A stretch of 33,983 nt of DNA from a bacterium (GTDB lineage: Bacteria > Patescibacteriota > Doudnabacteria > UBA920), in the NCBI GenBank assembly GCA_021791515.1, contig JAJYWK010000066.1, positions 1 through 33,983 on the forward strand, written 5' to 3'. This document shows positions 15,899 to 33,983 of this stretch, in pieces. Made by a program: the position numbers and the translations under genes. The notes under the pieces were generated by a model. That model made no database searches, was not told the origin of the DNA, and worked only from the letters and a program-made list of their open reading frames with translations. Numbering within the stretch: the first letter of the stretch is position 1; every line of letters begins with the position of its first letter.

Positions 15899-16156
15899 AT
15901 GTATACCGTATACGTATTAAAAGATAAGCTGGGAAACCTATATAAAGGCTTTACTAGCGATACCGAAAGGAGAATTAAAGAGCATAAATATGGCAAGACC
16001 AAAACGACCAGAAAAATGGAAAATCTTCAAATTATTTACACCGAAAACTTAAATTCCAGACTTGAGGCCAGAAAAAGAGAAAAATATTTAAAGTCAGCCG
16101 CAGGAAGAAGATTCCTAAAATCAATAGGTATATGGGACCGTAGCTCAATTGGTTAG
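15899..16156 (+). CDS. Small GIY-YIG family nuclease; C-terminus runs into tRNA-Asp
   Basis: 'VYVLKDKLGNLYKGFTSDTERRIKEHK', 'EARKREKYLKSAAGRRFLKS'; stop TAG lies in the tRNA-Asp D-loop. Confidence 0.88.
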   Translation: MYTVYVLKDKLGNLYKGFTSDTERRIKEHKYGKTKTTRKMENLQIIYTENLNSRLEARKREKYLKSAAGRRFLKSIGIWDRSSIG

Positions 16157-16210
16157 AGCACCCGCCTGTCACGCGGGAGGTTACGGGTTCGAGCCCCGCC
16201 GGTCCCGCCA
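16134..16210 (+). tRNA. tRNA-Asp (GTC)
   Basis: GGGACCG/CGGTCCC acceptor, CCCGC-CTGTCAC-GCGGG, encoded GCCA. Confidence 0.93.
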
Positions 16211-17724
16211 GATTTCCGCGCTGGAACTTGCATAGTTGCGAGAGAATTTGGAGCTTCAGCGCGAGAATCTTCCGAAACTTTTGAGGTTTGCAAATCTACA
16301 ATACAGTCAAACACTGGCGTCCATTTGGGCACCAGTTTTTGGTTTGTGTGGACGAAACCTTCAAAGCAGAGCTTAATGATGGTGCGTTTTTGCATGACGC
16401 CGGATTTTTCGTAAAGAAGGTCAGCGTGGTCGTTAAAATTCAGCAGGTCGTTGAATGCTTGCACAAACTTGTCGGACTGGCTTTCCAGGTCGGCCAGCCG
16501 CTCCTGGTAGACCTGCTTTTCCCGCAGCAGCTCGTCCTGTGCCTTCAGAAAAATCTCGGCATCGATTAACCTTTTGGATCGATCCATAACCAGATTGCGG
16601 ATCTGCTGCTGGATTTTGACCAGTTCCTGCTTAATGCTTTTACGCTCCAGTTCTTCGTTGGTCAGCCTCGTCTTGGCAAAGTGCTGAAAGTAGGCATCCA
16701 TAGTCTTCTTCATTTTGCCCGGCAGCTGCACCCGGGACAGGAAAGCCAAAACTTGCGGTTCGATTTCTGTATCTTTAGAGTACCGCTTTTCCGGACAATA
16801 AATGTCGCGCCTCTTGGTGCAGCTGTAATACAGGTGACCTTTTTTAAGTTGTCCCACCATAGCCGAGCCGCAGTGGCCGCAGCGGATGTAACCAGACAAG
16901 GGGTAAATGTGCTTGCGGGTGCGGTCTGCATAATGGTTTCTCTCCTGGATTTTTTCCTGCACGTCGTCAAACAACTTTTTGGAAATAAGTGTCGGAAAGC
17001 TGGCCTGGGCAGTGCCGTACGCTGTCTTTATAAGGCCGTAGTAGATGGGATTGCCCAAAATGTGCTCTATTGTCCTCCGGCCGACTGGTGTGCCGCCCCT
17101 TGCCCGAAAGCCCCGCTCGTTAAGCAGCACGGCCAATGCCTCATAGCCGTACTTGCCGGTGGCGTAAAGATCAAAGGCTTGTTTGACGAACTTTGCCCGG
17201 GTATGGTCTATGGTTAAAAGCTTGGTCTTTTTATCGTTAAGATAGCCAAGCGGCGCCACTCCCGGAAAGCGGCCGCGCTCTACCGCTTCTTTCAATCCCT
17301 TTTTAACCTCCCAACTGATGTTCTGGCTCGTCCACTGGGCAATCGATGCCATAATATTCTCCACCAACTCTCCGGAAAAGGATTCGTCAAACTGCTCAAC
17401 CACCGAAATGACCCTGACATCGTGCTTTTTAAGCATCATTTTAATGGCGGCGTAGTCAGCGACATTGCGGCAGAGCCTGTCCAGCTTATGGACTAAGATG
17501 ACATCGACCTTGTCGTCAATTTTTGCCCTGTGCAGCATTTTTTGCAGCTGCGGACGTTCGGCCGTCCTGGCCGATTCGCCGCGCTCCTCAAAAACATTCT
17601 CCGGCAAGGAATGCCAGGCATGCTCAGTGGCATACTTTTGGCAGGCTTTTATTTGCGCCGGAATGGATAATTCACGTTCTGCCTGCCGGGTCGTGGACAC
17701 CCGGCCGTAAATAAGGTAGTTCAT
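16153..17724 (-). CDS. Large serine recombinase/integrase
   Basis: 'YGRVSTTRQAERELSIPAQ', 'VHKLDRLCRN', recombinase domain, zinc ribbon 'CGHCGSAMVG...YYSCTKR...C'; C-terminal 'GGARTRNLPRDRRVL' is antisense tRNA-Asp. Confidence 0.93.
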   Translation of the reverse strand: MNYLIYGRVSTTRQAERELSIPAQIKACQKYATEHAWHSLPENVFEERGESARTAERPQLQKMLHRAKIDDKVDVILVHKLDRLCRNVADYAAIKMMLKKHDVRVISVVEQFDESFSGELVENIMASIAQWTSQNISWEVKKGLKEAVERGRFPGVAPLGYLNDKKTKLLTIDHTRAKFVKQAFDLYATGKYGYEALAVLLNERGFRARGGTPVGRRTIEHILGNPIYYGLIKTAYGTAQASFPTLISKKLFDDVQEKIQERNHYADRTRKHIYPLSGYIRCGHCGSAMVGQLKKGHLYYSCTKRRDIYCPEKRYSKDTEIEPQVLAFLSRVQLPGKMKKTMDAYFQHFAKTRLTNEELERKSIKQELVKIQQQIRNLVMDRSKRLIDAEIFLKAQDELLREKQVYQERLADLESQSDKFVQAFNDLLNFNDHADLLYEKSGVMQKRTIIKLCFEGFVHTNQKLVPKWTPVFDCIVDLQTSKVSEDSRAEAPNSLATMQVPARKSGGTGGARTRNLPRDRRVL

Positions 17725-17728
17725 GGAT

Positions 17729-18454
17729 TTAAAATTTCCTTACATGATAAATGACTCTGCCTAAAACTTCGACTTGCTTTAGGCTAATAAAAGGTGTCTG
17801 CCCGCGGCTGTTAATGGGCAGTTCAAGATTGCCATTGCGAACGTTAAAATAATTCAAAATTAAACCTGTGGGAGTAGCCAGCAATACCAAATCGCCGACA
17901 GAAGGAGTGGCGTCGGGATCAAAGACTAAAAAGTCTGAGTGCATGACTCCAAGCTGAGGCGACTGCACATCGTGGGCTTTAATGGCAAACAGCCTGTGGC
18001 CGATGGGCAGATGCAGTTCGACTTTGGAAAAAAAGACAAAAGCCCTGGCGCGTTTTATTTGGCTGCTTAATGCCCTGCGGCTACTTGGAGCGGCGGCCAG
18101 CAAAGGAACCTGACACATGGGAGCCAGACTGGCTTTAAGGGCGTTTAATTCGTCCTGCACCGGCTTTAATGTTTCTTCGGTCTTCCTTTGCATGGCGTCC
18201 TCGATTTTAAACTTATACGTCGTGGCCATGCCCACGACCCGGCTTAGCTTGCTGTCAAACCAATGCTCTTTTAACTGCTCCTCCTTGAGGCCGTAGGCCT
18301 TAGCCAGGGAAGAGAACTGCTTGGGCGAGGGCAGCCGGTCGCCGTTTTCCACCTGGGACACGTAACTGACCGAGAGCTTAAGAGCGGTGGCAATGTTCTG
18401 CATGGTTTTACCGGACTTTTGCCTGCTCTCTTTGAGGTATGAACCTATTGTCAT
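17729..18454 (-). CDS. CI/LexA-like phage repressor (XRE HTH plus S24-like domain)
   Basis: 'IGSYLKESRQKSGKTMQNIATALKLSVSYVSQVENGDRLPS' HTH; C-terminal 'HDVQSPQLGVMHSDFLVFDPDATPSVGDLVLLA' resembles S24 peptidases; preferred start 18454. Confidence 0.75.
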   Translation of the reverse strand: MTIGSYLKESRQKSGKTMQNIATALKLSVSYVSQVENGDRLPSPKQFSSLAKAYGLKEEQLKEHWFDSKLSRVVGMATTYKFKIEDAMQRKTEETLKPVQDELNALKASLAPMCQVPLLAAAPSSRRALSSQIKRARAFVFFSKVELHLPIGHRLFAIKAHDVQSPQLGVMHSDFLVFDPDATPSVGDLVLLATPTGLILNYFNVRNGNLELPINSRGQTPFISLKQVEVLGRVIYHVRKF

Positions 18455-18563
18455 AGATTTAATGTTAATGATGAGCTTCGACTTTAAGTAGCCGAATTTA
18501 ACTGCTTCCATGTTAGTATATAACAGCGTAAATGTAAAATAGAGTTATCCACTTTAGAATACT

Positions 18564-18592
18564 TTGACATTTCAAGCAGTATTGCTTAATAT
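18564..18592 (+). promoter_or_regulatory. Promoter of cro-like gene with embedded operator palindrome
   Basis: TTGACA-17 nt-TAATAT; AAGCAGTATTGCTT inverted repeat inside the spacer. Confidence 0.65.
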
Positions 18593-18625
18593 GACGAAAG
18601 AGGTCACATTTTAAAATTTTCTTTT

Positions 18626-18832
18626 ATGAAACCAAGTCCCAGCAGCGTCAAAATCCGGGAGCTTAGGATAAAGCGCGGACTGACCCAGTGCCAGCTCGCC
18701 CGCATTTTGGGCCTGAAGCACAATACGGTCATCAGCAAATACGAAACCGGCAAAAAGCGGCCGAACCTGCAAAACGCCCAGCGGATTGCCTTAGCCTTGG
18801 GCGCCACGGTAGACGAAGTCTTTAAAGCCTAA
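18626..18832 (+). CDS. Cro-like XRE-family HTH regulator
   Basis: 'IRELRIKRGLTQCQLARILGLKHNTVISKYETGKKRPNLQNAQRIALALG', divergent from the CI-like gene. Confidence 0.85.
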   Translation: MKPSPSSVKIRELRIKRGLTQCQLARILGLKHNTVISKYETGKKRPNLQNAQRIALALGATVDEVFKA

Positions 18833-18903
18833 AAAATATTAACCAAAAAGTGTGGGGTCAATAGTGTGAGGTCGCAACTTAACAAACCATCCGCAAAAAT
18901 CAA

Positions 18904-19167
18904 ATGTTCCAAGTGGAAGCGGACGAGCAGTATCTGGTCGAAATGGCCACGGATGCTTTGCGCGAAACCCTAAAGCGCGAGCCTACCAGGCAGGAAATCT
19001 GGAAGGCCCACGCCGGGTTTAAGCGCATGGCGCTGATACTGCTCGAACACATTGACCGGGAAAGAAATGAACTGCGAAAACAACAACAGGCAGAAAGGAC
19101 AGACCCTTCTGCCGATTCAACATGCCCAGAGGCAGGAACTGCAAGCCCGCAAGAAGCAAATTCTTGA
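18904..19167 (+). CDS. Hypothetical protein
   Basis: 87-aa ORF in the early region. Confidence 0.5.
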   Translation: MFQVEADEQYLVEMATDALRETLKREPTRQEIWKAHAGFKRMALILLEHIDRERNELRKQQQAERTDPSADSTCPEAGTASPQEANS

Positions 19168-19276
19168 AAATTTTACTGTCTCCGATCTGGATAACCCCGT
19201 AACCTTAAACAGCATTCAACAGATTTTGGGCTTAATTGACCAGAAACTAATAGCTTTGACCGCCTCTGCCCTATAA
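19067..19276 (+). CDS. Hypothetical protein overlapping the previous ORF
   Basis: Helical 'LQARKKQILENFTVSDLDNPVTLNSIQQILGLIDQKLIAL'. Confidence 0.4.
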   Translation: MNCENNNRQKGQTLLPIQHAQRQELQARKKQILENFTVSDLDNPVTLNSIQQILGLIDQKLIALTASAL

Positions 19277-19295
19277 ACCCCGCCTTGCCCCGATT

Positions 19296-19715
19296 TTGGA
19301 CAATAAAACCATGCAAAACTCTGCCTTTACAGTCCGCGACGTGCGCAATGGCGAGTGGTACTGGGTGGATAAGGCGGTCATTGACCGCTACGGATTCAAA
19401 CTCAAGCCCATCGGCATTGCCATTTACAACTGCCTGGCAAAGCTTGCCAACCAGGCCGGTCTTTGCTATCCCAGCCACAGCTATATTGCCAAAAAAATTG
19501 GGGCCAGCAAAAGCAGTGTTAAGCGTGGAATTTCTGCCCTCATAAAACTCAAACTGATAAGGCAGGAGCGAAGGCGTTATTCCAACGTTTACTACCTGCT
19601 GAAATTAGATAGCTCAAATAGAGCTATCTCAAATGAGGATGTGGATAACGAAAACGAGATAGTTCACCCTGAACCCCAGATAGCTCATATAGACCCCTCA
19701 GATAGGTCAGGGTGA
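19296..19715 (+). CDS. HTH_36-type replication initiator-like protein
   Basis: 'NCLAKLANQAGLCYPSHSYIAKKIGASKSSVKRGISALIKLKLIRQERRR' winged-helix typical of phage/plasmid initiators. Confidence 0.65.
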   Translation: MDNKTMQNSAFTVRDVRNGEWYWVDKAVIDRYGFKLKPIGIAIYNCLAKLANQAGLCYPSHSYIAKKIGASKSSVKRGISALIKLKLIRQERRRYSNVYYLLKLDSSNRAISNEDVDNENEIVHPEPQIAHIDPSDRSG

Positions 19716-20637: not shown

Positions 20638-20655
20638 GAATCGAGAGAAAACTGG

Positions 20656-21723
20656 CTAGTGCACCACAAAGCTGTTGTTCAGCCCAAGTGCGTCCGCCCG
20701 AGCATGGCTCCAGTTGATGCCATTGCTCCGGTCGTGCGCATGGATGGCCACGCTGTAATGCCCAGCCGGAAGCTGCACCGTATTCTCGGCGAGCGACCCC
20801 TTGTTAAACAGCAAAACGGTCTTGTCGCCCTGCGGATACGCAAACAACTCACTACGGAACTGGGACAGCTCCAGACGGAACCGATCGCCTCGCAGCAGCA
20901 CCACCGTGTATTCCGCTGACGGGTTGTAAGAACTATTGAGCACGAAGCTCAAGTCTTTGTTGTCGTCCACGGAAGCATCGAACTCGCGGATCTCGGTGGC
21001 GCCGACGCTGGAACCGAACCCGTTGGCGATGATGCTGCCGTTGAGTCCTAGCATCTCCACTTGGAAGTGGCGGCGGTCACGAACATCAAGCGGCCGGACA
21101 TTCTCTGCGTTGATCTCAATCTGCTGACCGTAGGAAACGCCGCCAGGCAGATAGATATACTTCTCCGCCGCTTGATTCTGGTTAGCGAACCTTGTGGTCG
21201 CCCGAATCTGGACGGGTCCCGGCGAAGAAACCGGCGACGTGGTGGTAAGCGTGACCACAGAACCTTCCTTGGCCTGCACCTGCGATGCGGCAATCGACAT
21301 GACTGCCGGAAACGAGGAGCGGAGGCTCAAGAAGTTCATCGTAACAGTGCCGCGGCCGAAAGGTCCGGTGTAAAGCGAGATGCTCAAGGGCCCGGGTTTC
21401 TCCGACCGGATGAAGCATTCGCCGGTTTGCAGGTTGCACTTCGTCGTGGCATCCGTGACATTCACGCCATCGAGGGTGTAGGTCGCGATTTGGATCGGCA
21501 GTGTCCGCAGGTCATCCACGCTCTGCCCGTTGCTGAGCAGGACGCGAAACTTGACGGTTGCGGTCTCGCCGATCGGAACGGTGGACACCACCCGCGGCGA
21601 AACGAGAACGTCTGCGATATCGGTCGGCTGGTTGGCCACTGGTGTTGTCGGTTGCGGTTGCTGACCCCACGTAACAACTGTGAGAGCCAGTGTGGAAAGG
21701 AACGTAGCGACGATCGTCTTCAT
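20656..21723 (-). CDS. Secreted hypothetical protein (signal peptide, beta-rich)
   Basis: 'MKTIVATFLSTLALTVVTWGQ' signal peptide; visibly higher GC than neighbours. Confidence 0.7.
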   Translation of the reverse strand: MKTIVATFLSTLALTVVTWGQQPQPTTPVANQPTDIADVLVSPRVVSTVPIGETATVKFRVLLSNGQSVDDLRTLPIQIATYTLDGVNVTDATTKCNLQTGECFIRSEKPGPLSISLYTGPFGRGTVTMNFLSLRSSFPAVMSIAASQVQAKEGSVVTLTTTSPVSSPGPVQIRATTRFANQNQAAEKYIYLPGGVSYGQQIEINAENVRPLDVRDRRHFQVEMLGLNGSIIANGFGSSVGATEIREFDASVDDNKDLSFVLNSSYNPSAEYTVVLLRGDRFRLELSQFRSELFAYPQGDKTVLLFNKGSLAENTVQLPAGHYSVAIHAHDRSNGINWSHARADALGLNNSFVVH

Positions 21724-22013
21724 TGAATCACCTCTTCTGTGTAGGATGTGGAATTGCCAAATACTCTAGGCAGATTTAAACACAGCAAATTATGCTCAAA
21801 TCAGCCTAGAGTATGTATTTTCTCTCTAAATATTAATCCTCCTGAATTATTTTAAAGAACCCATAATTATACATAATTTTGCCAGCTCTGTCAAGTCTTT
21901 TGCCTAAAAATGCCTTAAATAAAACCAAATTTTACCATATTAGCCTACAGACTATTGGCCTATTTTAAAAAATCCTGTATAATGCCTTGTTATAGCACCG
22001 ATAGGAGGAAAAA

Positions 22014-22835
22014 TTGAGCAAGAGAAAACGAGTCGAGCAAGCCCGGAAGAAACGGAAAACTTGGATCATTCCGGCAATCATAGCAGCGGCACTGTTGGTA
22101 ATCTTTGTCCTCTTTCCAGTAAAACAGGATCGGGCCAAGGAGAAAACCACAGTTCCAGTTCAGCAACCGCAACAGACGAACTTCCAATTTTCGGCAGACG
22201 AAGCCAAGAAACTGGTCAACGACCTACTTGTAGCCAGCAATCCCACAGATCCACAAAACTCCTACTTCACGCCATTTATGAAGGAGAAGATTCAGTGGAT
22301 CTGGAATGAGCATGCCGCCGGCCGCCTGCGGCTTGATGCCATCGGAGAATACTACAAGACCAAGGCGGGCTTGGAAAATAAGGCCACGCTGATGAACTCT
22401 TCGTATATCTCCAAGAATAATGACGGCAAACCGCCATACCAACCGGCCATTTTCATCTACACTCCGCGCCTGCTCATGCTGGTGAGGGTGCAGCAGAAAG
22501 TCCCCAGCGATTTCAACCAGATGAGTAAAAATACCTTCGTGCTTGGGTTGGTGCATGAAGCCACGCACTTTGAACGAGGCGAAGAGTATTACACGACTGA
22601 AACGCCGACAGATGAAACCCAACTGTTGGAAGAAGATCGTGTGTGGTTGAAAGTTAGTCAGTTGGCAGTCAGGCGCATGCGGACAATCGGCCAACCGCTC
22701 GATGTCGACTTTCTGGAAGTCGACGACATTCTCCAGCGTTGTAATTACAAGAGAGGATGCGTCGAATTTCTGGACTACTTGCGAACAGGCGGGAAGACTC
22801 CTCGTTCTCCCACCGTCTATAGGCAACCGCAATGA
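22014..22835 (+). CDS. Membrane-anchored HExxH putative metallopeptidase
   Basis: TTG start after AGGAGG; one TM; 'LGLVHEATHFERGEEYYTTETPTDETQLLEEDRVW'. Confidence 0.6.
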   Translation: MSKRKRVEQARKKRKTWIIPAIIAAALLVIFVLFPVKQDRAKEKTTVPVQQPQQTNFQFSADEAKKLVNDLLVASNPTDPQNSYFTPFMKEKIQWIWNEHAAGRLRLDAIGEYYKTKAGLENKATLMNSSYISKNNDGKPPYQPAIFIYTPRLLMLVRVQQKVPSDFNQMSKNTFVLGLVHEATHFERGEEYYTTETPTDETQLLEEDRVWLKVSQLAVRRMRTIGQPLDVDFLEVDDILQRCNYKRGCVEFLDYLRTGGKTPRSPTVYRQPQ

Positions 22836-22858
22836 AGTTCTGCGGTTGTCTTTTTTTT
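22821..22858 (+). terminator. Rho-independent terminator
   Basis: GGCAACCGCA...TGCGGTTGTC-TTTTTTT. Confidence 0.8.
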
Positions 22859-22911
22859 ACACAAAACAAAAAGCCGCCATCTCTAGAACAGCGGCTTTTG
22901 AACTGTCAGTT

Positions 22912-24891
22912 TTAGATACTCAACTGGTTTGCCATTCTTGTGTTTAATACTCCCGAAACTGGAGCAGCCAAGTCATAGTTATTTGCCGGAACCACCTCGT
23001 TCATATCCAAACCCCAAGAATAGAATACCTCCATACTGGGTATTCCTAAGCGGGTATTATTTTTAAGCAAATAGACAGTTTTATTATCCCTGATTAAAGT
23101 CCCATCCGGATGAGCTGTTGCTGAATTATTGATGGGAGCCAAGGTTACCATAAACGAAGTATCTCCAGGCTGGGCATTGGCAAAGGAATAACCTAGCTCC
23201 AAGAAAGACTGGGCATTGGCAAAGCCCACTCTTGTGCCGTTGGTGATAAGGTAAATAGTTCCTTTATCATTAATAAGCGAACCGTTACGGGGAGGAATAA
23301 AATAGGTAGTTTGTTGGGTAGAACCGGAAGGTGTGTAAGTGGCGACCGGTAGGGCCATATCGCCGGATGTGGCTGGCACTACCGTTGCCCAGGTGTTAAA
23401 GCCGTATGATAAGAAGGCACCGGCAGAAGTGTAAGGGTAGCGTGCGCCACTTTCTATTCTGTAAACTGTGCCGTCTGGCGCCGCCACGTTGGTATAATTT
23501 ACATGGGCAGCACCGCTCACCGGTTGTGGGGTAGGAGCGGGGCTGGACGGATTATTTACAATCAAAGTAAACTGTTTACTTGCATTGGCTGAATACTGAT
23601 CAGTCAAACTTAAAGTTACTGTGTAAGTTCCGGCAGTTGTCGGAGTGCCGCTAATTGTCACTGAACCTGGGTTGTTATAAACAATCCCGTAAGTGGTATT
23701 GGGACTTGAAGCACTACCGGTAGTTATACCGGGAGGCAAGCCGCTGAAAGTAGCATTGCTGGCATAGTTAGTGCCGCTGGTAAAATACTGAAAATCTATT
23801 TTAGCGTTATAATACGCTCCAACTGTAGCGGAAGTTAATGGATCATTATTGATCACGAAATAGGGAGATGCCGAATTAGCAGGCTTAACGGTTAAAGTAA
23901 ACTGCTTGCTGGCTCCTGACATCCCATAGCCAGATCCTGCCCAGTTGGGATTATTAATAGTCAGATAGATGGTGTAAGTGCCTGGTGTAGTTGGGGTGCC
24001 GGTAATGTAAACCGTTCCTTTGCCGCCGCTTAATGCCGGGGTCATCCCATAATTATTCAAGGTGTCAGAACCAACTCCCGTGCGCAAGCCGGGCGGTAAA
24101 CTGTTAAAGCTAGCATTAAGCGAATAGGTATTATTGGACGTGTAATCAATACCGGTTGAATAGGTTTGCCCTACAGTGGCATCTGGCAACTTTGTATCAG
24201 TAAGAATTGAGTAGCTGTCTGCCACGGCCGCTGATTTGATCCTCAAAGATATGGTTTTTTGGGCAGTGCCTCCATTTGCATCCGTAACCTTTACTGTCCA
24301 TAAATAATCACCGGCAGGACCTTGCACTGTTGAACTGGTTTGAGTATTAAATGTGGGTCCATTGCCGCTTATTCCTAATACGCAACAAGCCGATGGGTAT
24401 GTGGTTGATATAGGCATCCACGTATATGGAGCCGTGCCGCCGGTTGCTTGCAGTTGAGCCGAGTAAGATTGACCTATGGTGGCATCCGGTAAACTGCTAG
24501 TAGTAATCTGTATATTCGGCTTGATAGTTAAACTTAATGTTTTTGTTGCTGTATTTCCAAGAGCATCGGTAACTTGGAAAGTCCACCAATAAGTTCCCTC
24601 TGGACTTACCACAGTTGAGGATGTTTGGGTAGAAAATAATCCGGAACCGTTAACTCCTAAAACGCAACAATTGGTGCCTTGAGCTCCGGAAGGGGTAATA
24701 ATTGACGGAGCTGACCAGGTAAAAGACGGGTTACTACCTTCAGCCTGAAGCTGGTAAGAATATGACTGACCGACCGTGGCATCAGGCAAGCTGGTGGTGG
24801 TTATTCCCAGATAACCCGCACTAACGTTTGCCGCCGGCAAAAGTGAAAACATTATTGCCACCACAAATATTACTGCAAATATTTTTTTCAT
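22912..24891 (-). CDS. Secreted multi-domain surface protein with He_PIG/Ig-like repeats
   Basis: Signal peptide; four 'LPDATVGQSYS' type repeats; C-terminal repeats 'DGTLIRDNKTVYLLKNNTRLGIPSMEVFYSWGL'. Confidence 0.8.
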   Translation of the reverse strand: MKKIFAVIFVVAIMFSLLPAANVSAGYLGITTTSLPDATVGQSYSYQLQAEGSNPSFTWSAPSIITPSGAQGTNCCVLGVNGSGLFSTQTSSTVVSPEGTYWWTFQVTDALGNTATKTLSLTIKPNIQITTSSLPDATIGQSYSAQLQATGGTAPYTWMPISTTYPSACCVLGISGNGPTFNTQTSSTVQGPAGDYLWTVKVTDANGGTAQKTISLRIKSAAVADSYSILTDTKLPDATVGQTYSTGIDYTSNNTYSLNASFNSLPPGLRTGVGSDTLNNYGMTPALSGGKGTVYITGTPTTPGTYTIYLTINNPNWAGSGYGMSGASKQFTLTVKPANSASPYFVINNDPLTSATVGAYYNAKIDFQYFTSGTNYASNATFSGLPPGITTGSASSPNTTYGIVYNNPGSVTISGTPTTAGTYTVTLSLTDQYSANASKQFTLIVNNPSSPAPTPQPVSGAAHVNYTNVAAPDGTVYRIESGARYPYTSAGAFLSYGFNTWATVVPATSGDMALPVATYTPSGSTQQTTYFIPPRNGSLINDKGTIYLITNGTRVGFANAQSFLELGYSFANAQPGDTSFMVTLAPINNSATAHPDGTLIRDNKTVYLLKNNTRLGIPSMEVFYSWGLDMNEVVPANNYDLAAPVSGVLNTRMANQLSI

Positions 24892-24980
24892 AGTGATGAG
24901 GTCTTTTAATGATTTAAAGATAAATGCACTTTGATGATAATTTTTAGTAAAAAATTAATAAATATGGGAAATAAATTATC

Positions 24981-26783
24981 TTATTTGTTTACCTGCAAAT
25001 TAAAACTTTGGGTTTTATTCATACTGCCAGCGTCTAGCGTTATCTTAAATGTGTAATTCCCTGCCTTAGTCGGAGTGCCGACAATAAAGATGCGGCAAAT
25101 ATCAGTAGGATCGGAAGGGTTACCGCTCACCGCTCTTAAGGTTGCAGGTCCACCACGGCTTAATCCAGGTGGTAAATTTCGCTCTATGGTGTAGCCATCG
25201 TAATTGTTACACGGGCTAAAATCAACACTACCGTCATAGTATTCTCCCACTTTCGCCGGAGGCAGGTTAATGTTACTGAAAGTAAAAGGATTGGGAACGA
25301 AGACCGGAGCTGTTTCAGAAGGCGGGTTTTGGTTTTGGGTAGGAAATAGAGAATTAAAATCATCAGAAGGTAAAGTTGGCCTGGATTCTTTATCAATTCC
25401 GTATTCTGTCACGGTATGCATACCTGCAAAATATCCCCCTGTCGAGCTACCAAGGCAAAAAGTGAGCTCATAGCGGGTTGAGTCAATTAATTTGTATTGA
25501 TAGGTGTTCTGCGCTTTAGTGCAGGTCCCGTCCGCGGGCTCTGGCGCAACAGGAACTTCTCCCATGACAGCCGGGGCTAATGAAGACGATTTAGTTAGTT
25601 CAGAAAGTTGATTTGGATAAGTTTGATGATCATTTAAGTAAAGTTCCAAAGCGGAGGATAATTGCCTGACATCGGCTATGCGTTTGGCATCTCGGGATTT
25701 TGCACGTGCGGAATTTAAGGCTGGCCAAACAAACAACCCGCCTACTAAAACGATACTGGCTATAACAACTCCAATAATAGCTAAAGCTGTCCATAATCCG
25801 CTCGACTTGTCTGCCGGTATTTGAGACTCGCCCTTTACTGCTTTTAGATTCTCGTAGACTTTATAGCCATAAATAACATATAGGGGCGGCAAGATTACTG
25901 AAAAAATAATGTTAATTATGGTTGCTACTATAATGCCAGTTATTCCAGCAATAGTTTTTTCAAAAAAGTTTCCTAAGAATGAGGTAAACAAGAAAATCGG
26001 GATTGAAAGCAAAACGGCAACCATACCTATAAATACAAACCGCCAAAGCACCGGCCACCAGTAGCCGCGGACATAGTCACTGCTGCGTTTTATGGCGGGC
26101 ATTGCCCTGGCATTATCACCAACCACAACAAAGGTGGCAAGTGAATATCGAACGGCTAGAATAATTGCGGGAATAGCTAAAATCAAACCGAGTAAACCCA
26201 TTACTGCAAATACCATCCAGATGGAAGAAACTATCGGTAGTAACCAGCGTAACAAAGGTCCGTATAAAAATATAAATCCAGGGATTTCCAACAGTAATGC
26301 CATTCCAACTATTGCTAAACCGGCAAGTAAACTGGCGCCAAAGAATGATCCAATCTTATGAGAAGCTTGGCCAAAAGATTCTTTAAATCCAATTCGTTGA
26401 TCCGCACCCTTAATCGCATACATTAAAGCAACTTGCGCCCAAATGCCAATGTAGATAATAGCTATGTAAATTAAAACTGCTAGTATTAAACTAGCGATTA
26501 AAGTCGTCCCAACACTGCCACCGAATTTGGATGTCAACGCACTCCCTGCAATAAGACCGCCACTGACCAGAGCTATATAAATAACAAAAACCGCTGAAGG
26601 CACCAAATAAATACCGATCAAAAGCCAAAAGCGGTCTTTGTATACTTGCCAAGCCTGCCTAAAGATAGAGGTGGGGCCGGGTAATTTGCCTCCAGTCATA
26701 GTTGCAGGCTGGACTGACTCAGCCGGAGGCGGGACGGCAGGCTGATTTTGAGGGGGCACGCTATAAATTGATGGATTTTCCAT
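24981..26783 (-). CDS. Polytopic membrane protein fused to pilin-like and He_PIG-like domains
   Basis: Multiple TMs, then 'PALNSARAKSRDAKRIADVRQLSSALELYLNDHQTYP', then 'INLPPAKVGEYYDGSVDF...LPPGLS...IVGTPTKAGNYTFKITL'. Confidence 0.75.
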   Translation of the reverse strand: MENPSIYSVPPQNQPAVPPPAESVQPATMTGGKLPGPTSIFRQAWQVYKDRFWLLIGIYLVPSAVFVIYIALVSGGLIAGSALTSKFGGSVGTTLIASLILAVLIYIAIIYIGIWAQVALMYAIKGADQRIGFKESFGQASHKIGSFFGASLLAGLAIVGMALLLEIPGFIFLYGPLLRWLLPIVSSIWMVFAVMGLLGLILAIPAIILAVRYSLATFVVVGDNARAMPAIKRSSDYVRGYWWPVLWRFVFIGMVAVLLSIPIFLFTSFLGNFFEKTIAGITGIIVATIINIIFSVILPPLYVIYGYKVYENLKAVKGESQIPADKSSGLWTALAIIGVVIASIVLVGGLFVWPALNSARAKSRDAKRIADVRQLSSALELYLNDHQTYPNQLSELTKSSSLAPAVMGEVPVAPEPADGTCTKAQNTYQYKLIDSTRYELTFCLGSSTGGYFAGMHTVTEYGIDKESRPTLPSDDFNSLFPTQNQNPPSETAPVFVPNPFTFSNINLPPAKVGEYYDGSVDFSPCNNYDGYTIERNLPPGLSRGGPATLRAVSGNPSDPTDICRIFIVGTPTKAGNYTFKITLDAGSMNKTQSFNLQVNK

Positions 26784-26837
26784 TTTGTTTCTTATTGGAT
26801 TTAAGGCTTTATTTGCTTTAATAATAACATAAAATCA

Positions 26838-27707
26838 TTATATTTGCGAATTGGCTACTGTTCCAGCAAGCTTATTGTCCGATTTTAGGGTCAGCAAACC
26901 AACGATAATCAAGACTCCCGCTATAAGAGTTTGCAGATTAATTATATTGTTCTCCAACAGTAGCCATAGGAGAATTACCAACCCTATAGTGATCAATCCC
27001 TTCTCCCAAAAGTTGTAAATTTTGTCAGAAAAATGTTGGGATAAATCTAAAGCATGTTGTTTGACTTCTTTCAATCGCTGCGTCTCCGATTTGTCTTTAG
27101 TAGTCACCGGTAACAACGGCAGTAGTAAGTTAATTGACATCCATAAGTTTACATAAATCATTCCCGATACCAAAACTTCCACCGGTTTAAAATCTATGCT
27201 CACGTCGCCGAGCAAGACTAAAAATACCGCTTTGTTAATCTGAACAATCGTAAGCACCAACATCAAGAGCAAATAAAAGACGTAAAAGTAAGCTCGTCTA
27301 CGTGCAGAAAAAGTTTTTTGCACTATTACTAATGCCTGATTGATAATAAAAATTGCTACGACCAGCCATGCAGCCATAGACCAGACTTGGAACTTCCATA
27401 TGTAATAAGCCAGGACAAATCCGGCAATGCCGTTAAGAAACAAAAAGGTTAGCTCATCTATTCTTTGGGAAAATTCAAAACGAAAATAATAACAGGCAAC
27501 TGCGCAGAACACGAAGCAAAAAACGAAAACAATGATAGCTAATGGCATTTTATCCATTACCCCCAAAGCTGAAAACGCCATGGTGCCTAACGCCGCAAGG
27601 GATATTTTCATTGCTCGCTCTTTGGAATATGCCCGAAATAGAAAAATCACAATTTGAACAGTAACTCCCAAAGCAAACCATAAACTTAAAGGCAATCTAT
27701 TATCCAA
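26838..27707 (-). CDS. Polytopic membrane protein, hypothetical
   Basis: 289 aa with many TM helices. Confidence 0.65.
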   Translation of the reverse strand: MDNRLPLSLWFALGVTVQIVIFLFRAYSKERAMKISLAALGTMAFSALGVMDKMPLAIIVFVFCFVFCAVACYYFRFEFSQRIDELTFLFLNGIAGFVLAYYIWKFQVWSMAAWLVVAIFIINQALVIVQKTFSARRRAYFYVFYLLLMLVLTIVQINKAVFLVLLGDVSIDFKPVEVLVSGMIYVNLWMSINLLLPLLPVTTKDKSETQRLKEVKQHALDLSQHFSDKIYNFWEKGLITIGLVILLWLLLENNIINLQTLIAGVLIIVGLLTLKSDNKLAGTVANSQI

Positions 27708-27729
27708 GGTTGTGTATAGTTAAGATTAA

Positions 27730-28317
27730 TTATTTGAACTCATACCTTACCATTCCGGCTTCTGTAGAAATTTCTAAGGGCTCATGAGGCAGATATGTCG
27801 CCAATGCTTGCTCCACCTGCGCTGAATTATCTGGCTCGGAATATACCACCACAAAAGTTTTTACAAATTTATCCCAAAAGGTTTGTTTCTTCTTTTTGAG
27901 GTAGTAAGTTTTACCGCTAATTTCGGTAAGCCGATCACTTGTTGCCAAGATATCTTGAACAGCGGCACGGGTGCGAAGATTGCTCGCCCGAGCTGCATCC
28001 TTTTTTATGACTAATGAATGCGTGTAAAAACATTCAAAGTCGTTCCAAGAAAATGTTTTTTGCTTTTCGCCTTTGCCGATGATTATACCAGTTTGTGTGA
28101 TTTGATATTTTCTGTTTTTAAACTTGGCAAACAGGGCAGTAAAAATATAAAACAACACCATGATGCCGACAAACACCATTAGGACAGACCATGACCTCTC
28201 TTTGATTGCCAAAATTATAGCCAAACCAAAAAGCACATTGGCGACTATTGGTATGCTTCGAAGTGTTCTGGTTTTAGCTTCTTGGGAGGTTATTTCCCAT
28301 TCAAGCGTCTGATCCAT
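27730..28317 (-). CDS. Membrane protein with PH-like fold, hypothetical
   Basis: Two N-terminal TMs then 'YQITQTGIIIGKGEKQKTFSWNDFECFY'. Confidence 0.6.
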   Translation of the reverse strand: MDQTLEWEITSQEAKTRTLRSIPIVANVLFGLAIILAIKERSWSVLMVFVGIMVLFYIFTALFAKFKNRKYQITQTGIIIGKGEKQKTFSWNDFECFYTHSLVIKKDAARASNLRTRAAVQDILATSDRLTEISGKTYYLKKKKQTFWDKFVKTFVVVYSEPDNSAQVEQALATYLPHEPLEISTEAGMVRYEFK

Positions 28318-28324
28318 TTGTTAT

Positions 28325-29032
28325 TTAGGAAGTAGCAAGGACTAACCAAGCTATTAATGCGAACGTAATAATGAGTCCTAAAATAAGTGCTGAAACTAAA
28401 TTCAGCTTTGAGACAAATTTTCCAAAGCCGGTAACGATTGGCAATCCGTTAGCCTTGTCTTGGATCATTTTGCCGATGTCCTCGTTATATAAATCTGTAT
28501 CAGCGGATTGGGTAACCGTCGCGAATTGAATGCGAGGATTTAAGCTAATAATAGCCTGCTTGAAACCTTCAAAATCTTCTAAAAAGTTCTTAACTTGATA
28601 AGTCTGATTTTGGATAGTTAGACTAAAGCCGATCATAGGCGAACCTCTACCTCTTGAAAGCATGGTTTTAACAAAGTCCGCCTTAACTGAATGGTGGCCT
28701 TGGGAATCGTCCATAGCGGTAATGCTGACGATAGGCACGCTCCATTGCACTTTTGACAGCACTACAAGATTGAGCACACCATCTTTAATTTCTAAATACG
28801 ATTTACTTTTCAGCAATGCCTGTATTGGGTAGTTTATTAGAATAAATATTACATACAAAGGCAGAAAAAATACTATACCCAATATAACCTTATTGTTTAT
28901 TTGATCCAAGGGTATGTGTAGAGCATCAAATAACCAGCCCGCGTAATTAAAATACAAAAACACCAGCGGGATTAAAAGAATGGTTGCCCAACCCGACCAT
29001 GAAAAATTTTTAAAACGGAAGATTTGATTCAT
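28325..29032 (-). CDS. Membrane protein, PH-like, hypothetical
   Basis: TMs flank 'LEIKDGVLNLVVLSKVQWSVPIVSITAMDD'. Confidence 0.6.
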   Translation of the reverse strand: MNQIFRFKNFSWSGWATILLIPLVFLYFNYAGWLFDALHIPLDQINNKVILGIVFFLPLYVIFILINYPIQALLKSKSYLEIKDGVLNLVVLSKVQWSVPIVSITAMDDSQGHHSVKADFVKTMLSRGRGSPMIGFSLTIQNQTYQVKNFLEDFEGFKQAIISLNPRIQFATVTQSADTDLYNEDIGKMIQDKANGLPIVTGFGKFVSKLNLVSALILGLIITFALIAWLVLATS

Positions 29033-29421
29033 GCGAGAACTTTAACTTGAATATTAGGATTAAAATTTTGCAGAGATTTAACAAATCCTTCGGGATCAAT
29101 AACACGGTGTGGCAGAATATAAGTTAACTGTCCGACGGCAAATATAAATTTTTGTTTGGCCGGGGTTGCGGAATAGCTTGCCTGAGTGATTTGATTAATA
29201 TCCAAGGTACATCCTTTTGCTTGGGGAGCGGTGAAAATAAGCTGCCCTTGGGAAATGCGCAAAGACGTCATTTTGATATAAAAAGCCGCCATTCCTAAAA
29301 CCATCATAAGAGTTAATACGCTCGTAGCGGTTTTAAAACTGCCTCCAAATAAATCTGCCATTTCCCTCCAAAATTCAGAGGGTTTATTTGATAGTATGAG
29401 TCCGGCAAGCAATAGGAACAT
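29029..29421 (-). CDS. Small membrane protein, PH-like, hypothetical
   Basis: 'LRISQGQLIFTAPQAKGCTLDINQITQASY'; ATGA overlap with the next gene. Confidence 0.6.
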   Translation of the reverse strand: MFLLLAGLILSNKPSEFWREMADLFGGSFKTATSVLTLMMVLGMAAFYIKMTSLRISQGQLIFTAPQAKGCTLDINQITQASYSATPAKQKFIFAVGQLTYILPHRVIDPEGFVKSLQNFNPNIQVKVLA

Positions 29422-29705: not shown

Positions 29706-29722
29706 ATAAAAAATTCATTAGA

Positions 29723-29970: not shown

Positions 29971-30168
29971 TCAAAGTTTTCTCAAAATCTTGTATGGCCA
30001 GATTAAAATAAACACCAAGGCGGTGCTCACGCTACGGTCCCGGATAAACAGCGGCGGTTCCAGCAGGTTGCTGCCGTCTTTTTTCAGCAGCACCTTCCTC
30101 AAGTCCCATATCACCATAGCTAACCCTGCGGCCAAGTAAATGACAATAACCAAAAGTGGTAAACTCAT
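29971..30168 (-). CDS. Small membrane protein
   Basis: 65 aa, two hydrophobic segments. Confidence 0.5.
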   Translation of the reverse strand: MSLPLLVIVIYLAAGLAMVIWDLRKVLLKKDGSNLLEPPLFIRDRSVSTALVFILIWPYKILRKL

Positions 30169-30242
30169 GACTGTATTATACCAAAAAATGAAATTAAAAG
30201 CCCGCCGCCGGACTTCCGGCAGCGGTTCTGTAAAACTTAAAG

Positions 30243-30500
30243 TTATAAATAACCCTTGAATTTTTCTACCAGTTCCCGGCCGCCCATCGCTTCCAGTTCT
30301 TTGAGGATTTCACGCTGGACGTGGAGTTCGTTATGTCTGGGCACCATAATGAAATGCGGTTGTTGGGGCTGTAATGTGCTTGCTATTTCTTGGGGAGGAA
30401 ACCATTTGTCGTGAATGCCCCCGCGCCTGCTGTTCTCATAAAACCCGAGCTTGCGCAGGGCGCGGACGCACTGCCGCTTATTGAAATTGGTTTCTCCCAT
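30243..30500 (-). CDS. HicA-like mRNA interferase toxin
   Basis: 'ALRKLGFYENSRRGGIHDKWFPP...HFIMVPRHNELHVQREILKEL'. Confidence 0.65.
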   Translation of the reverse strand: MGETNFNKRQCVRALRKLGFYENSRRGGIHDKWFPPQEIASTLQPQQPHFIMVPRHNELHVQREILKELEAMGGRELVEKFKGYL

Positions 30501-30523
30501 AACACAAAAAAATTGGTTTTAAT

Positions 30524-30844
30524 TTAAGCGGTACGGAGCTGGCCTTCGTACTGGACTTCGCCCATGCCTTCGATTTTTAGTTTATCAAAGACAATGTCGG
30601 CTTCTCTTTTTGGTACATCAAAATAGGTTAAGACGGCGTCATTAACCATTTCTAAAAGTTCCTGCTGGCTGCGGGCCTGGGTAACCAGCCCGGGAAGTTC
30701 CGGAATTGTAGCCACGAACCAACCCTCTTCAGTTAGGCGGATTTGGATATTAAGGGCGCGCGGAATATGGTACTGGCGGATGATTTCTTCCGGATGCCGT
30801 TGTGGGATAACTAGCCTATAGATTTTATGAAAGATAGTTTGCAT
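30524..30844 (-). CDS. HicB-like antitoxin
   Basis: 'IRLTEEGWFVATIPELPGLVTQARSQQELLEMVNDAVLTYF'. Confidence 0.75.
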   Translation of the reverse strand: MQTIFHKIYRLVIPQRHPEEIIRQYHIPRALNIQIRLTEEGWFVATIPELPGLVTQARSQQELLEMVNDAVLTYFDVPKREADIVFDKLKIEGMGEVQYEGQLRTA

Positions 30845-30892
30845 ATGATTTATTATACCTTAATCTATAAGACGCAGTCAAATGCGGTTTTG

Positions 30893-30994
30893 TGTCAATA
30901 AAAACAAACCCCTTGCGGGGTCTGCGTTTTCGCCTAGTTTAAGGCAGAACCTTAAACCCATTCTCCGCCATACGGCCGGGCCTTCAGCGAAAAC
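30893..30994 (-). ncRNA. Candidate structured RNA upstream of hicB-like gene
   Basis: Minus strand GTTTTCGC...GCGAAAAC closing stem, internal GTTTAAGG/CCTTAAAC hairpin, terminator CCCCGCAAGGGGTTTGTTTTT. Confidence 0.45.
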
Positions 30995-31149
30995 TTATAT
31001 TGGTAGATTACCATAATGGGCGGAAATATCAAGGGTAAATTTTATGGCTTAAGGTAAATAAAAGTTAGTAGCTGTGCATAGTTGAAATTGGCTAAACTGC
31101 AAAAAACTGATACAATAATCATGTTCAATTGAATACGATTCGTTGGCTT

Positions 31150-31178
31150 AGGGGCTCCTCATAAGGGAGTCCTTTTTG
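31150..31178 (+). terminator. Rho-independent terminator of a possible short RNA
   Basis: GGCTCC-TCATAA-GGGAGTCC-TTTTT. Confidence 0.6.
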
Positions 31179-31300
31179 CATATTGTGGTAATTATCCACA
31201 ACCCGGCAATTTGACCGAACGGGAATAACGGGTGTAAGATATTCTTGAAAATTGAATCTGCTTTAAGGGGCAGCCTGAATGGTATCTTCCGGGTTCAAGG

Positions 31301-31355
31301 GCTCGTAATTTGTTATCACACTTTTTGTGTGGTGACAGGTTACGAGCTCTTTTTA
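31301..31355 (+). terminator. Long terminator/attenuator-like hairpin
   Basis: GCTCGTAATTTGTTATCACAC-TTTTT-GTGTGGTGACAGGTTACGAGC then TCTTTTT. Confidence 0.65.
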
Positions 31356-31368
31356 ATTTCCAATAAGG

Positions 31369-31499
31369 CGGACAAATTCCTGTCACCTGTCTAAAGGTCG
31401 ACATCTCGCCTGCGAGCTTCGACCTCACACTTGCCTTAAAAGTTTAAGGGCTTTTAGGGCAAAGGCAGCGGGATGCGGCAGGTGTCGGGAATTTGTCCG
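31369..31499. ncRNA. Candidate multi-branch structured element
   Basis: 21-bp closing stem (2 mismatches) 31369-31389/31479-31499, hairpin 31396-31424, hairpin 31431-31462. Confidence 0.5.
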
Positions 31500-31517
31500 G
31501 CAACAAACAAAGAAACA

Positions 31518-32537
31518 ATGTTCAGCAAATTCAAAGCCCTGCCCAGCTACTTTGGCGGCAAGCGCAAACTGGTCAAATACATTTTTAAGCCCATCGTAAA
31601 AAAAGAAGGAACTTTCATTGACGCGTTTTTAGGCGGCGGTTCGGTCAGTCTCTATGCCAAAGCCAAGGGCTACAAAGTAATAGCCAACGACATTGCGCTT
31701 CGCTCTTGCATAATCGGCAACGCCATAATCGCTAACAATACGATAGAGCTCGAAAAGGAAGACCTGGCCAGGCTGTTCTTTAAAACCAAACATGAAAATT
31801 TTATTAAGAAAAATTATTGCCCTAAAGTTTTCACTACCAAGATTGCCGAGTTTTTGGATAACGCCTTTGCGGCCGTCCGGCTGGTAGAAAACGACACCAA
31901 ACGGTTTTTACTTCTGCACCTGCTGATAAAGTTTATTATCTCATGCCGCCAGTTCGGAAAGTTTACTCACACCCGCGACACGCTGGACTTGGAAGCTCGG
32001 AAATGGGATTGGCCGCTAAGGTCGAAGTCCCACGCGCCTAAAAACCTGCGCATGATCCAGAATCCCATGCTGACATTGGAAAAATTAATGCTGGAGATCA
32101 ACCATGGCATTTTTGACAACCATCAGCAAAACGAAATCCACCAAAAGGACGTCTTTGATTTTCTTAAAACTGTTGCTGGCGACATTGTATATTTTGATCC
32201 TCCTTACCCTGGTTCTTCTGCCTACGAAGTTGAGTACGGCATTTTAGACAACATCCTGGCTGGACGGAAGCTCGACAACAAACCCAGCGTATTCTCGGAC
32301 AACGATGCTGATGAATTTTTGGAAAGATTGTTTAAGTCCGCCAAGCATATCCCTCAGTGGATAATTTCTTTAGGGCAAAACAAAGAAGATATTGGCGTCC
32401 GGCCCGAAAAGCTGCTGGCGATGGTACAAAAATACCGCAAGGCCGAAGTCCAGATGATGGAGCATAAGTGGAGCGTGGCCAACGCCGGTGGCAGAAGCCA
32501 AAGTAACAACATCGAGTACATGATCGTAACCCATTAA
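31518..32537 (+). CDS. Dam-like DNA adenine methyltransferase
   Basis: 'YFGGKRKLVKYIFKPI', 'FIDAFLGGGSVSLYAKAKGYKVIANDI', 'DIVYFDPPYPGSS' (DPPY); start 31518 preferred over 31473, which lies in the hairpin. Confidence 0.88.
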   Translation: MFSKFKALPSYFGGKRKLVKYIFKPIVKKEGTFIDAFLGGGSVSLYAKAKGYKVIANDIALRSCIIGNAIIANNTIELEKEDLARLFFKTKHENFIKKNYCPKVFTTKIAEFLDNAFAAVRLVENDTKRFLLLHLLIKFIISCRQFGKFTHTRDTLDLEARKWDWPLRSKSHAPKNLRMIQNPMLTLEKLMLEINHGIFDNHQQNEIHQKDVFDFLKTVAGDIVYFDPPYPGSSAYEVEYGILDNILAGRKLDNKPSVFSDNDADEFLERLFKSAKHIPQWIISLGQNKEDIGVRPEKLLAMVQKYRKAEVQMMEHKWSVANAGGRSQSNNIEYMIVTH

Positions 32538-32544
32538 CAAACCC

Positions 32545-33471
32545 ATGCCCAAAACCAACTTAAACGAAACTGAAAAAATCCCAGGCCTAATCGTACCGAT
32601 CAAAGATTGCGTACCCAACTGGTGGAATCCCAACGAGATGAACGTTCGGCAGTTTAGCAGTTTGAAAAAAGCTCTGACTATGTACGGCCAGACCAAGCCG
32701 ATCCAGGTCGCGGTATGGCCGGACATGAAAATTATGGGCAAGGTTAAAATCAAGTCCGGCTACGTCATTGTCGGCGGCTTTCACACCTGGAAAATTTTGT
32801 CGGCTTTGGGCAAAAGAAAAATCCAGGTCAACGTGCATAATTTTAAAAATGAGGACGAAGCCAAGCTCTACGGCCTGACCGATAACATCCACGGCTCAAA
32901 CCAGCAATTAAAGCTCGGTAAACTGGCCTACGAATTAACCCAGCGGGGTTATTCCATTAAGGACATCGCCAGCCGGGTCGGCACGGAAGACATTGACGTC
33001 AAAGATGCCCTCGACCTGATTAAGGACGACATTGAAAAGAAAATGCAGCAGCTCAAAAAAGCCGAGCGGGAAAATTTCGTGGCCTTAAACTTCATTGTGG
33101 ACAAAGACCCGAAAATTTCCGCCGATGAATTCATCGCGGCCGTAACGGCCTTTGCCAAAGCCAAGGGAGTTAAAGTCGGCAAAGTGGCTAAGGATATAAA
33201 CCGGCTGAGGGAAACTATTGCGCTAGTCAGCTTTAATGTTACCAGTCCGCAAAAGACGGTCATTGACGAAGCCTTAAAAACAATTGCCAGCGAGGGGAAG
33301 TTTAAGGAAGCCGACGCACTGGCCGAGCTATGCAGCCGTTTTTTGGCAAACCCGCCAACTCACACCAACTCACACCGAAATGGACAATCTCCAAAAGCCG
33401 AAAAAACCAAAGACCGATCCGTACGGCGCAAAGTGCCAGGAAGTAATCCGCCTAAAGTACGAGGATTTTAG
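32545..33471 (+). CDS. ParB-like nuclease-domain protein
   Basis: 'IKDCVPNWWNPNEMNVRQFSSLKKALTMYGQTKPIQVAVW...IVGGFHTWKILSALG...DEAKLYGLTDNIHG'. Confidence 0.8.
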   Translation: MPKTNLNETEKIPGLIVPIKDCVPNWWNPNEMNVRQFSSLKKALTMYGQTKPIQVAVWPDMKIMGKVKIKSGYVIVGGFHTWKILSALGKRKIQVNVHNFKNEDEAKLYGLTDNIHGSNQQLKLGKLAYELTQRGYSIKDIASRVGTEDIDVKDALDLIKDDIEKKMQQLKKAERENFVALNFIVDKDPKISADEFIAAVTAFAKAKGVKVGKVAKDINRLRETIALVSFNVTSPQKTVIDEALKTIASEGKFKEADALAELCSRFLANPPTHTNSHRNGQSPKAEKTKDRSVRRKVPGSNPPKVRGF

Positions 33472-33859
33472 CTATTCAGAGATTGCCCGCAAAACCCGCA
33501 TTCCGCTTAACACCATTAAGGAATGGTTCAGAACCGGTGGGTTGCTGGTTTCCGCCTACGAAGCGTACCGGGACGAACAAAATGACGTAGCTCACGATGA
33601 AGCCAGGCAGGCCATAAAAAAGAATGTCAAGACCGCCGCGGACATGCTCGTTGCCCTGCTCGGAAGCGAGCTTGACCCGGTTAAGCTCAGAGCCACGCTG
33701 GCCATACTCGACCGGGAGCTGGGCAAGCCCAAAGGCGAGGACGATGACGGATACGGAGATATAAGTTATGAGCAACTCCTTAAACGGGCCAGGGCCAAAC
33801 GAAAAGAAAAACAGGAAGCGGCAAATAGACGAACTGCTGGAAGTCATCGACATTTGTGA
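33380..33859 (+). CDS. Terminase small subunit-like HTH protein
   Basis: 'YGAKCQEVIRLKYEDFSYSEIARKTRIPLNTIKEWFRTGG'; internal start MDNLQKPKK preferred. Confidence 0.55.
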   Translation: MDNLQKPKKPKTDPYGAKCQEVIRLKYEDFSYSEIARKTRIPLNTIKEWFRTGGLLVSAYEAYRDEQNDVAHDEARQAIKKNVKTAADMLVALLGSELDPVKLRATLAILDRELGKPKGEDDDGYGDISYEQLLKRARAKRKEKQEAANRRTAGSHRHL

Positions 33860-33893
33860 CGCCGACCCCAGGGATTTTATTGACTTTGAATAA
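33768..33893 (+). CDS. 41-aa ORF overlapping the TerS-like gene
   Basis: MSNSLNGPGPNEKKNRKRQIDELLEVIDICDADPRDFIDFE; ATG 33768, TAA 33891. Confidence 0.4.
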   Translation: MSNSLNGPGPNEKKNRKRQIDELLEVIDICDADPRDFIDFE

Positions 33894-33983
33894 CGAAACC
33901 CCTCAATCCTTAACAGTCTGATATACTTTTCTTGGGGGGAGTTTCCTTGCCGAAAGCAAGAAAACCTGCCCCAATAAAAGAAT

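Follow-up and report, generated by a model that had tools for sequence, protein, structure and literature searches.

This locus raises the question of what kind of element occupies the 3' end of a tRNA-Asp gene in a genome of the candidate phyla radiation (CPR), and how it was inserted there. The window analysed is a stretch of 33,983 nt that represents the entire contig C22 of genome G000 (1.17 Mb, 70 contigs, 97.7% complete); position 33983 is the contig end. A temperate tailed-phage prophage, of which the early half is present, occupies the region from 16,211 to approximately 33,881, at the 3' end of tRNA-Asp. It is very probable that this island derives from a family of temperate tailed phages of Patescibacteria, that it entered the tRNA-Asp site by a single crossover with the attP site lying within the integrase frame, and that its late half was replaced by an insertion sequence (IS)-like element. 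The prophage is a new member of a familiar type, and the copy on C22 is probably defective. What is new is the integration system, in which serine integrases are aimed at tRNA ends as a rule across the order and attP appears to lie inside the integrase gene.

The initial annotation had reported a serine recombinase abutting tRNA-Asp, with a C-terminus translated from the antisense strand of the tRNA, and this was borne out. The recombinase gene (16153..17724, - strand) is antisense to tRNA-Asp(GTC) (16134..16210, + strand) over its last 58 nt. Its product carries the Resolvase, Recombinase and Zn-ribbon Pfam domains above the curated cut-offs, has the invariant residues R8, S10, R83 and R86 of large serine integrases, and matches phrog_95 integrase (E = 9e-102). 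The antisense-tRNA C-terminus, which was a mere detail in that annotation, is the most informative feature of the locus. Upstream of the integrase gene are a CI-like repressor (17729..18511, -; HTH_3 and weak Peptidase_S24 matches) and a divergent Cro-like helix-turn-helix protein (18626..18832, +); the island therefore contains both the integrase and the divergent CI/Cro switch of a temperate tailed phage. These genes are followed by a conserved small early open reading frame (ORF; 18904..19167, +; 45-62% identity in relatives), an O-like replication initiator (19296..19715, +; HTH_36; phrog_428, 7e-15) and a small, zinc-ribbon-like Cys-pair protein that is conserved across the phage family (20010..20273, +). 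To the right of the cargo region lie a D12/Dam-type N6-adenine methyltransferase (31473..32537, +; 82-85% identity in relatives), a ParB-like protein (32545..33471, +; 68-70% identity in relatives) and the terminase small subunit, TerS (33377..33859, +; phrog_2538, 4.9e-5). As judged by domain and phrog matches, the genes listed previously (CI/Cro, initiator, cargo, HicBA-like, Dam-like, ParB-like and TerS-like) had been named correctly. Absent from that list was the start of terL (33768..33881, +), the terminase large subunit gene, which overlaps TerS; its approximately 38 codons share 37% identity over 35 aa with the TerL protein of a relative, G060, and are cut at about position 33882 by the left end of a multi-copy IS-like repeat (33882..33983) that reaches the contig end. 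A scan of the island's ORFs revealed no relaxase or conjugation genes, such as would mark an integrative conjugative or mobilizable element.

A complete relative was identified on the 55.9 kb IMG/VR contig 3300025154_002045 (G060). Identity to the window was 66% for the integrase, 82% for the methyltransferase, 70% for ParB and 48% for TerS. The early genes are in the order integrase, CI, Cro, small ORF, initiator, Cys-pair protein and other cargo, after which come the methyltransferase, ParB, TerS, TerL, portal, a scaffold-like protein, capsid, tail-region genes, an endolysin-like amidase and a holin-like gene. The integrase gene, at the left end, overlaps a tRNA-Ser gene in the antisense orientation. 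A blind search for attR was carried out, in which the last tRNA bases had to be preceded by an inverted copy of the left arm, with gaps allowed. The top-ranking site was GGTTCTAACTTCGGGACATCGCCACCGCCA at 37,947-37,976 (score of 19.6, compared to 12.2 for the next independent site), directly after the holin-like gene; it was missed by a gapless dyad search and recovered by the gapped search, the left arm of G060 containing a 2-nt insert. This position sets the length of the G060 prophage at approximately 37.9 kb. Since TerL, portal and capsid genes are present in G060, and the C22 copy has only about 38 codons of terL, the latter was classed as a truncated prophage of the G060-type family and not as an intact phage. 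Three lines of evidence uphold the earlier proposal that a prophage occupies tRNA-Asp in this CPR genome: the gene content, the location of the ancestral right flank on a separate contig, and the existence of a complete relative in which the genes are ordered alike and an att site is present at each end.

The ancestral arrangement was seen in genomes G016, G012, G014 and G001, where RmuC comes within one to a few genes after tRNA-Asp, then LabA/NYN and, at a greater distance, UvrD (as far as the available stretch extends), with an Hsp20 gene between in G012 and G016. In G007 and G015 there are additional genes ahead of RmuC and the order is otherwise kept. In G000, RmuC, LabA and Hsp20 are on contig C34, not beside tRNA-Asp, and approximately 40 bases past the Hsp20 stop codon C34 reaches the putative other end of the IS-like repeat. 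The left end present on C22 is also found at the ends of C61, C42, C6, C67, C16 and C68, and the putative right end at the ends of C34, C5, C57 and C63. The repeat was read as an insertion sequence because the right end encodes a transposase-like C-terminus and because both ends, read inward, start with G(A/G)CTT; a Pfam search with the transposase-like C-terminus returned no family, leaving the IS family without a name. The simplest join, C22-IS-C34, would give tRNA-Asp, 17.7 kb of early prophage, the IS and the chromosome.

A search of the genome with the G060 TerL protein recovered a single relative, a piece of 30 residues in the window, and the one capsid relative in the genome is part of another phage, on contig C11. 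The packaging and capsid genes that had been predicted beyond TerS were therefore not present in the bin by these TerL and capsid searches, C22 stopping at the IS-like repeat inside terL. On this basis the late genes were probably lost, perhaps through IS-mediated deletion. The late half, from about terL codon 39 onward, would have been replaced by an IS-like element that probably joins the Hsp20/RmuC flank directly, which would leave a copy that is likely to be defective. Alternatively, the phage may be complete in the organism save for an IS in terL, its late half missing only from the bin because the assembly was broken by the repeat. Phage contigs commonly end up outside bins, and C22 does end in a repeat. 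This explanation has an appreciable chance of being correct, but it is unlikely: TerL and capsid searches found none of the late genes of the island phage in a bin that is 97.7% complete, and the contig with the chromosomal right flank, C34, also terminates in what is taken to be the opposite end of this IS.

Other relatives, among which L171 and G002 have also lost late genes, help to define the attachment sites. Integrases 55-70% identical to that of the window were found at 19 genomic loci, of which 14 are titled as Patescibacteria lineages (Azam-, Nomura-, Yonath-, Magasanik-, Vogel-, Kaiser- and Zambryskibacteria, Paceibacterota, Parcubacteria and Patescibacteria) and five only as 'bacterium'. 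A tRNA gene lies at the 3' end of the integrase gene in 18 of the 19 (17 Ser and one Asp), and the same CI gene is present in 15 of the 16 close loci that have upstream sequence. At 17 close loci the tRNA ends in CCGCC(A) and is immediately followed by GATT or GATG; the arm downstream of the tRNA is conserved at these loci, and upstream each tRNA is different. At one locus, L171, the remnant bounded by attL and attR is 9.6 kb long, and in it TerS is cut after approximately 37 codons and fused to the end of the late region; its attR, GGTTCAAAGTT-CC-GGAAATC-GCCTCCGC, mirrors its attL, GATTTCC-AACTTTGAACC. In G002, a genome from the same genus as the window, a 3.4 kb remnant at tRNA-Asp has the attR sequence GGTTCGAACTTCCGGAGGTCTCCACCGCCA followed by CACTTCGCTAAAGCTTCGTGTGGC, and CACTTCGCTAAAGCTTCGTGTGGC directly follows tRNA-Asp in the unoccupied genome G016. 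This remnant with its attR indicated that the family uses tRNA-Asp in the genus of the window. A search for attR partners at the other genomic loci, within 10 kb of sequence each, gave no confident pair.

These att sites give a core of CCGC, extended by CA in two cases. The core of the window, CCGC(CA) at 16205-16210, was inferred from the attL/attR pairs of G060 and L171 and the attR of G002. In the window, tRNA-Asp forms the left half of attL, and the right arm (16211..16240, +) begins GATTTCCGCGCTGGAACTTGC...; in relatives GATKTCCAASTTWGAACC stands directly after CCGCCA. An attL is thus present in the window, with no attR in the assembly, and complete att pairs are present in G060 and L171. 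The tRNA can remain intact without a long repeat because the phage carries its last bases, and integration is proposed to occur by a single crossover in the short CCGC(CA) core common to the phage attP and the end of the tRNA gene, an exchange that would keep the tRNA whole. The initial annotation had noted that no second copy of the tRNA-Asp 3' end was visible; there is indeed none in the window or in the assembly, but a long direct repeat was the wrong marker to look for, since with an att core of only a few bases no long copy is expected.

Two sets of candidate sites were rejected. A candidate attR for an element at tRNA-His on contig C18 (score of 16; p of approximately 0.1 over all elements tried, by our own estimate) is surrounded by genes of ordinary chromosomal type, and the attP frame that it implies runs directly into a stop. 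Matches to the attP pattern in L188 and L189 had no related integrase. In the C18 element itself (L125, 2543-22400) the integrase lies at tRNA-His, and next come a TerS relative (45%) and restriction-modification-like cargo; it is probably another element of the same integrase type in the G000 genome.

An order-wide search returned 30 loci that encode related large serine integrases, most of them distant (24-35% identical) and the one in the window included; two were cut by contig ends, leaving 28 that were usable. In 25 of these 28 a tRNA, or in one case a tmRNA, is antisense at the 3' end of the integrase gene, and many isoacceptors are represented. Five such integrases are encoded in G000; four overlap a tRNA or tmRNA gene and the fifth is 218 nt from one. 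In all 25 cases the integrase frame stays open through its final 120 nt and on into the tRNA, compared to two and none of the 25 for the other frames. Furthermore, when attR was read outward from the core in the integrase frame, the sequences SGGGDVPKLEPIRGLHYSRVDKIVRDLRRIYKDNPASFDVPAFAVKVY (G060), SGGGDFRNFEPVIAAKSLSFSKLDKIIRQLRLTFKENPAAFDVPAFAVKVY (L171) and SGGGDLRKFEPRKPRWYWAIDGYIQKLRIIYKENPEWFEVPKEALKESRQMVL (G002) were obtained for a conserved continuation of 48-53 aa at attR of the three relatives. This tail shares 57% (L171) and 45-46% (G002) identity with that of G060 (tblastn values of 3e-15 and 7e-9, respectively). Over the tail region the other frames are closed, the third codon position is the most variable, and in an alignment of the three phages the length changes by whole codons.

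Given the conserved tail frame at three attR sites, we conclude, from a coding signal that is modest, that attP is likely to lie inside the integrase gene and that integration would swap the tail for tRNA-antisense codons. In the phage circle the integrase would end in the conserved tail; integration would move the tail codons to attR, and the integrase frame would then run into the antisense strand of the tRNA. It is possible, if short of probable, that integration acts as a switch, in which the loss of the conserved tail and the gain of host tRNA-antisense residues change the activity of the enzyme, and that this holds generally for tRNA-targeting serine integrases of Patescibacteria. Excision, for example, might be blocked until an intact copy arrives, or might be directed. 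If so, the switch arrangement spans many different tRNA genes and a tmRNA gene.

The overlap between integrase and tRNA could instead be incidental, with the frame running to a chance stop and the attR tail being conserved as DNA and not as protein. Residues read from a tRNA cannot be selected as protein, and in the last protein block the differences between G060 and L171 at codon positions 1, 2 and 3 (4, 3 and 6, respectively) constitute a weak coding signal. This explanation is nevertheless improbable, since it is the integrase's own frame that is open in every case and hardly ever the others, and since the tail aligns as protein in three phages, with changes in length by whole codons and with the other frames closed.

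Several results weigh against integration at tRNA-Asp by exchange of the integrase tail, followed by replacement of the late half. The tail rests on three sequences, of which G060 and L171 are alike at the DNA level too, and the third-position excess is small. For the more distant integrases no confident attR was found, nor were there convincing direct repeats of tRNA 3' ends. A search for a free circle or an attP junction found none, the matches to the search pattern being unrelated. The attR and the integrase tail of the C22 copy are not in the assembly, and the att details for this copy are by analogy. There is no target-site duplication between the IS ends of C22 and C34, and the seven left-end and four right-end contigs allow other IS pairings; for these reasons the C22-IS-C34 join is only an inferred one.

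It is also very unlikely that the island is a satellite resembling a phage-inducible chromosomal island, composed of an integrase, regulators, an initiator, cargo and TerS and packaged by a helper such as the C11 phage. In favour of a satellite, the bin contains no structural gene of the island, G000 carries another phage that has its own TerL, portal and capsid, and late genes have also been lost in L171 and G002. Against it, such satellites lack terL by design, and here the start of a gene homologous to G060 TerL overlaps TerS; moreover, in G060 this early module precedes a full set of late genes, and the cut falls at the IS-like end and not at an att site. The suggestion that there are two islands, with a tRNA-Asp integrase element on the left, host genes in the middle and a phage fragment on the right, which the initial annotation had foreseen as a possible outcome, can be dismissed as scarcely credible: some of the middle cargo does have homologues elsewhere in G000 or in related genomes, but in G060, L171 and L178 integrase-CI-Cro and the methyltransferase (with ParB where present) are on one element with variable cargo between, and the ancestral right flank is elsewhere, on C34.

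As a prophage the element resembles the ten predicted prophages (mean of 43.7 kb) reported in metagenome-assembled genomes of Paceibacteria (PMC12455944), which are likewise integrated in ultra-small genomes and are close in size to the 37.9 kb between the G060 att sites; the main text of that paper does not mention integrases, recombinases or tRNA. The integrase has the Resolvase, Recombinase and zinc-ribbon domains of the large serine integrases of the phiC31, Bxb1, A118 and TndX type, and shares with them a short core and inverted arms in attP. It differs in that the known enzymes mostly target protein genes, whereas here the 3' ends of tRNA and tmRNA genes are the rule and the gene would span attP. 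Serine integrases were not known to target tRNA genes (PMC4383910), and Durrant et al. (PMC10083194), who surveyed large serine recombinases by the thousands, do not use the word tRNA in their main text. In the available part of a 2025 TIGER/Islander note, one third of islands are in tRNA or tmRNA genes, with no split by integrase family given there.

Integrases that disrupt their own gene have been described as exclusively archaeal (PMC8371274). In these suicidal, SSV-type integrases attP also lies within the integrase gene, as concluded for G060, L171 and G002, and integration splits the gene. There, however, the split parts large portions of the enzyme, whereas here only the C-terminal tail would be exchanged; the SSV-type enzymes are archaeal tyrosine recombinases with Phage_integr_3, and only serine recombinase domains are present here, so the two systems are analogous and the integrase of the window is not a member of that class. 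The integration-dependent immunity of mycobacteriophage BPs (PMC4557955) is similar in that the attachment site lies in a phage gene whose product is altered on integration; it differs in that the gene altered there is reportedly that of the repressor, and here it would be that of the integrase itself, a serine recombinase. A literature search found no paper on such a system in Patescibacteria, which is weak evidence, most subscription papers being outside its scope.

Serine integrases are widely used DNA integration tools. Those aimed at tRNA and tmRNA ends, with a switch between Ser and Asp within one close family, provide new natural target sites and a model for shifts in specificity. If the proposed exchange is real, an integrase gene that spans attP would have been invented independently in bacteria, in a serine recombinase, and the purpose of the exchange would be directly testable. 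Little is known of lysogeny in CPR genomes, and an integrase that ends in antisense tRNA is a simple marker for prophage ends in fragmented assemblies of these genomes.

The variable cargo of the island (20656..29421, mixed strands) occupies approximately 9 kb and encodes mostly secreted or membrane proteins, among them an immunoglobulin-like secreted protein (22912-24891, -) and a GPDPase-like membrane protein (24981-26783, -); relatives carry other cargo at the same place. In G060 this site, between the Cys-pair gene and the Dam methyltransferase (L163 1962-6979; L026 1574-8628), contains defence-like genes, namely two DNA methylases (PglX-like and type II matches), Fic, an AAA ATPase, a PD-(D/E)XK nuclease and a tyrosine recombinase. 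Different cargo again is present in L168, L172, L175, L178 and L184, marking the site as an accessory hotspot of the phage family. Between the cargo and the methyltransferase of the window are a HicA-like toxin (30243..30500, -) and a HicB-like antitoxin (30524..30844, -). A search of IMG/VR with TerS returned no relative, and no relatives of ParB were found among named phages. The second, different phage of the genome, on C11 (L027, L121, L122; 41 kb), has ParB/methyltransferase, TerS and TerL genes (TerL matching phrog_675, 3e-98), secreted-protein cargo between TerL and portal, and a capsid 34-36% identical to that of G060.

To the left of the island, in the interval 14880-16210, two small GIY-YIG ORFs (14951-15229 and 15899-16156) run into the 5' ends of the complete tRNA-Met and tRNA-Asp genes, and ahead of each lies a broken 5' half of the tRNA in question (exact copies of 20 and 22 nt). 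Across the genome, five of 14 GIY-YIG genes lie no more than about 120 nt upstream of a same-strand tRNA gene, three of them with a 5' copy; they look like a separate small mobile family that inserts in tRNA genes. In G007 the tRNA-Asp GIY-YIG gene is present without the prophage. Broken tRNA 5' halves at 15405-15465 and 15812-15880 contain differing perfect or near palindromes (CCTGCCTGCCGGCAGGCAGG; CCCGCCCGAACGTACCGCTCGGTACGGGCGGG) at the same D-loop position. Finally, in G002 (L192 to L193, C2 ~210,400-216,000) and G004 (L037) the orientation of the Met-Met-Asp tRNA cluster with respect to the CCA-enzyme gene is reversed.

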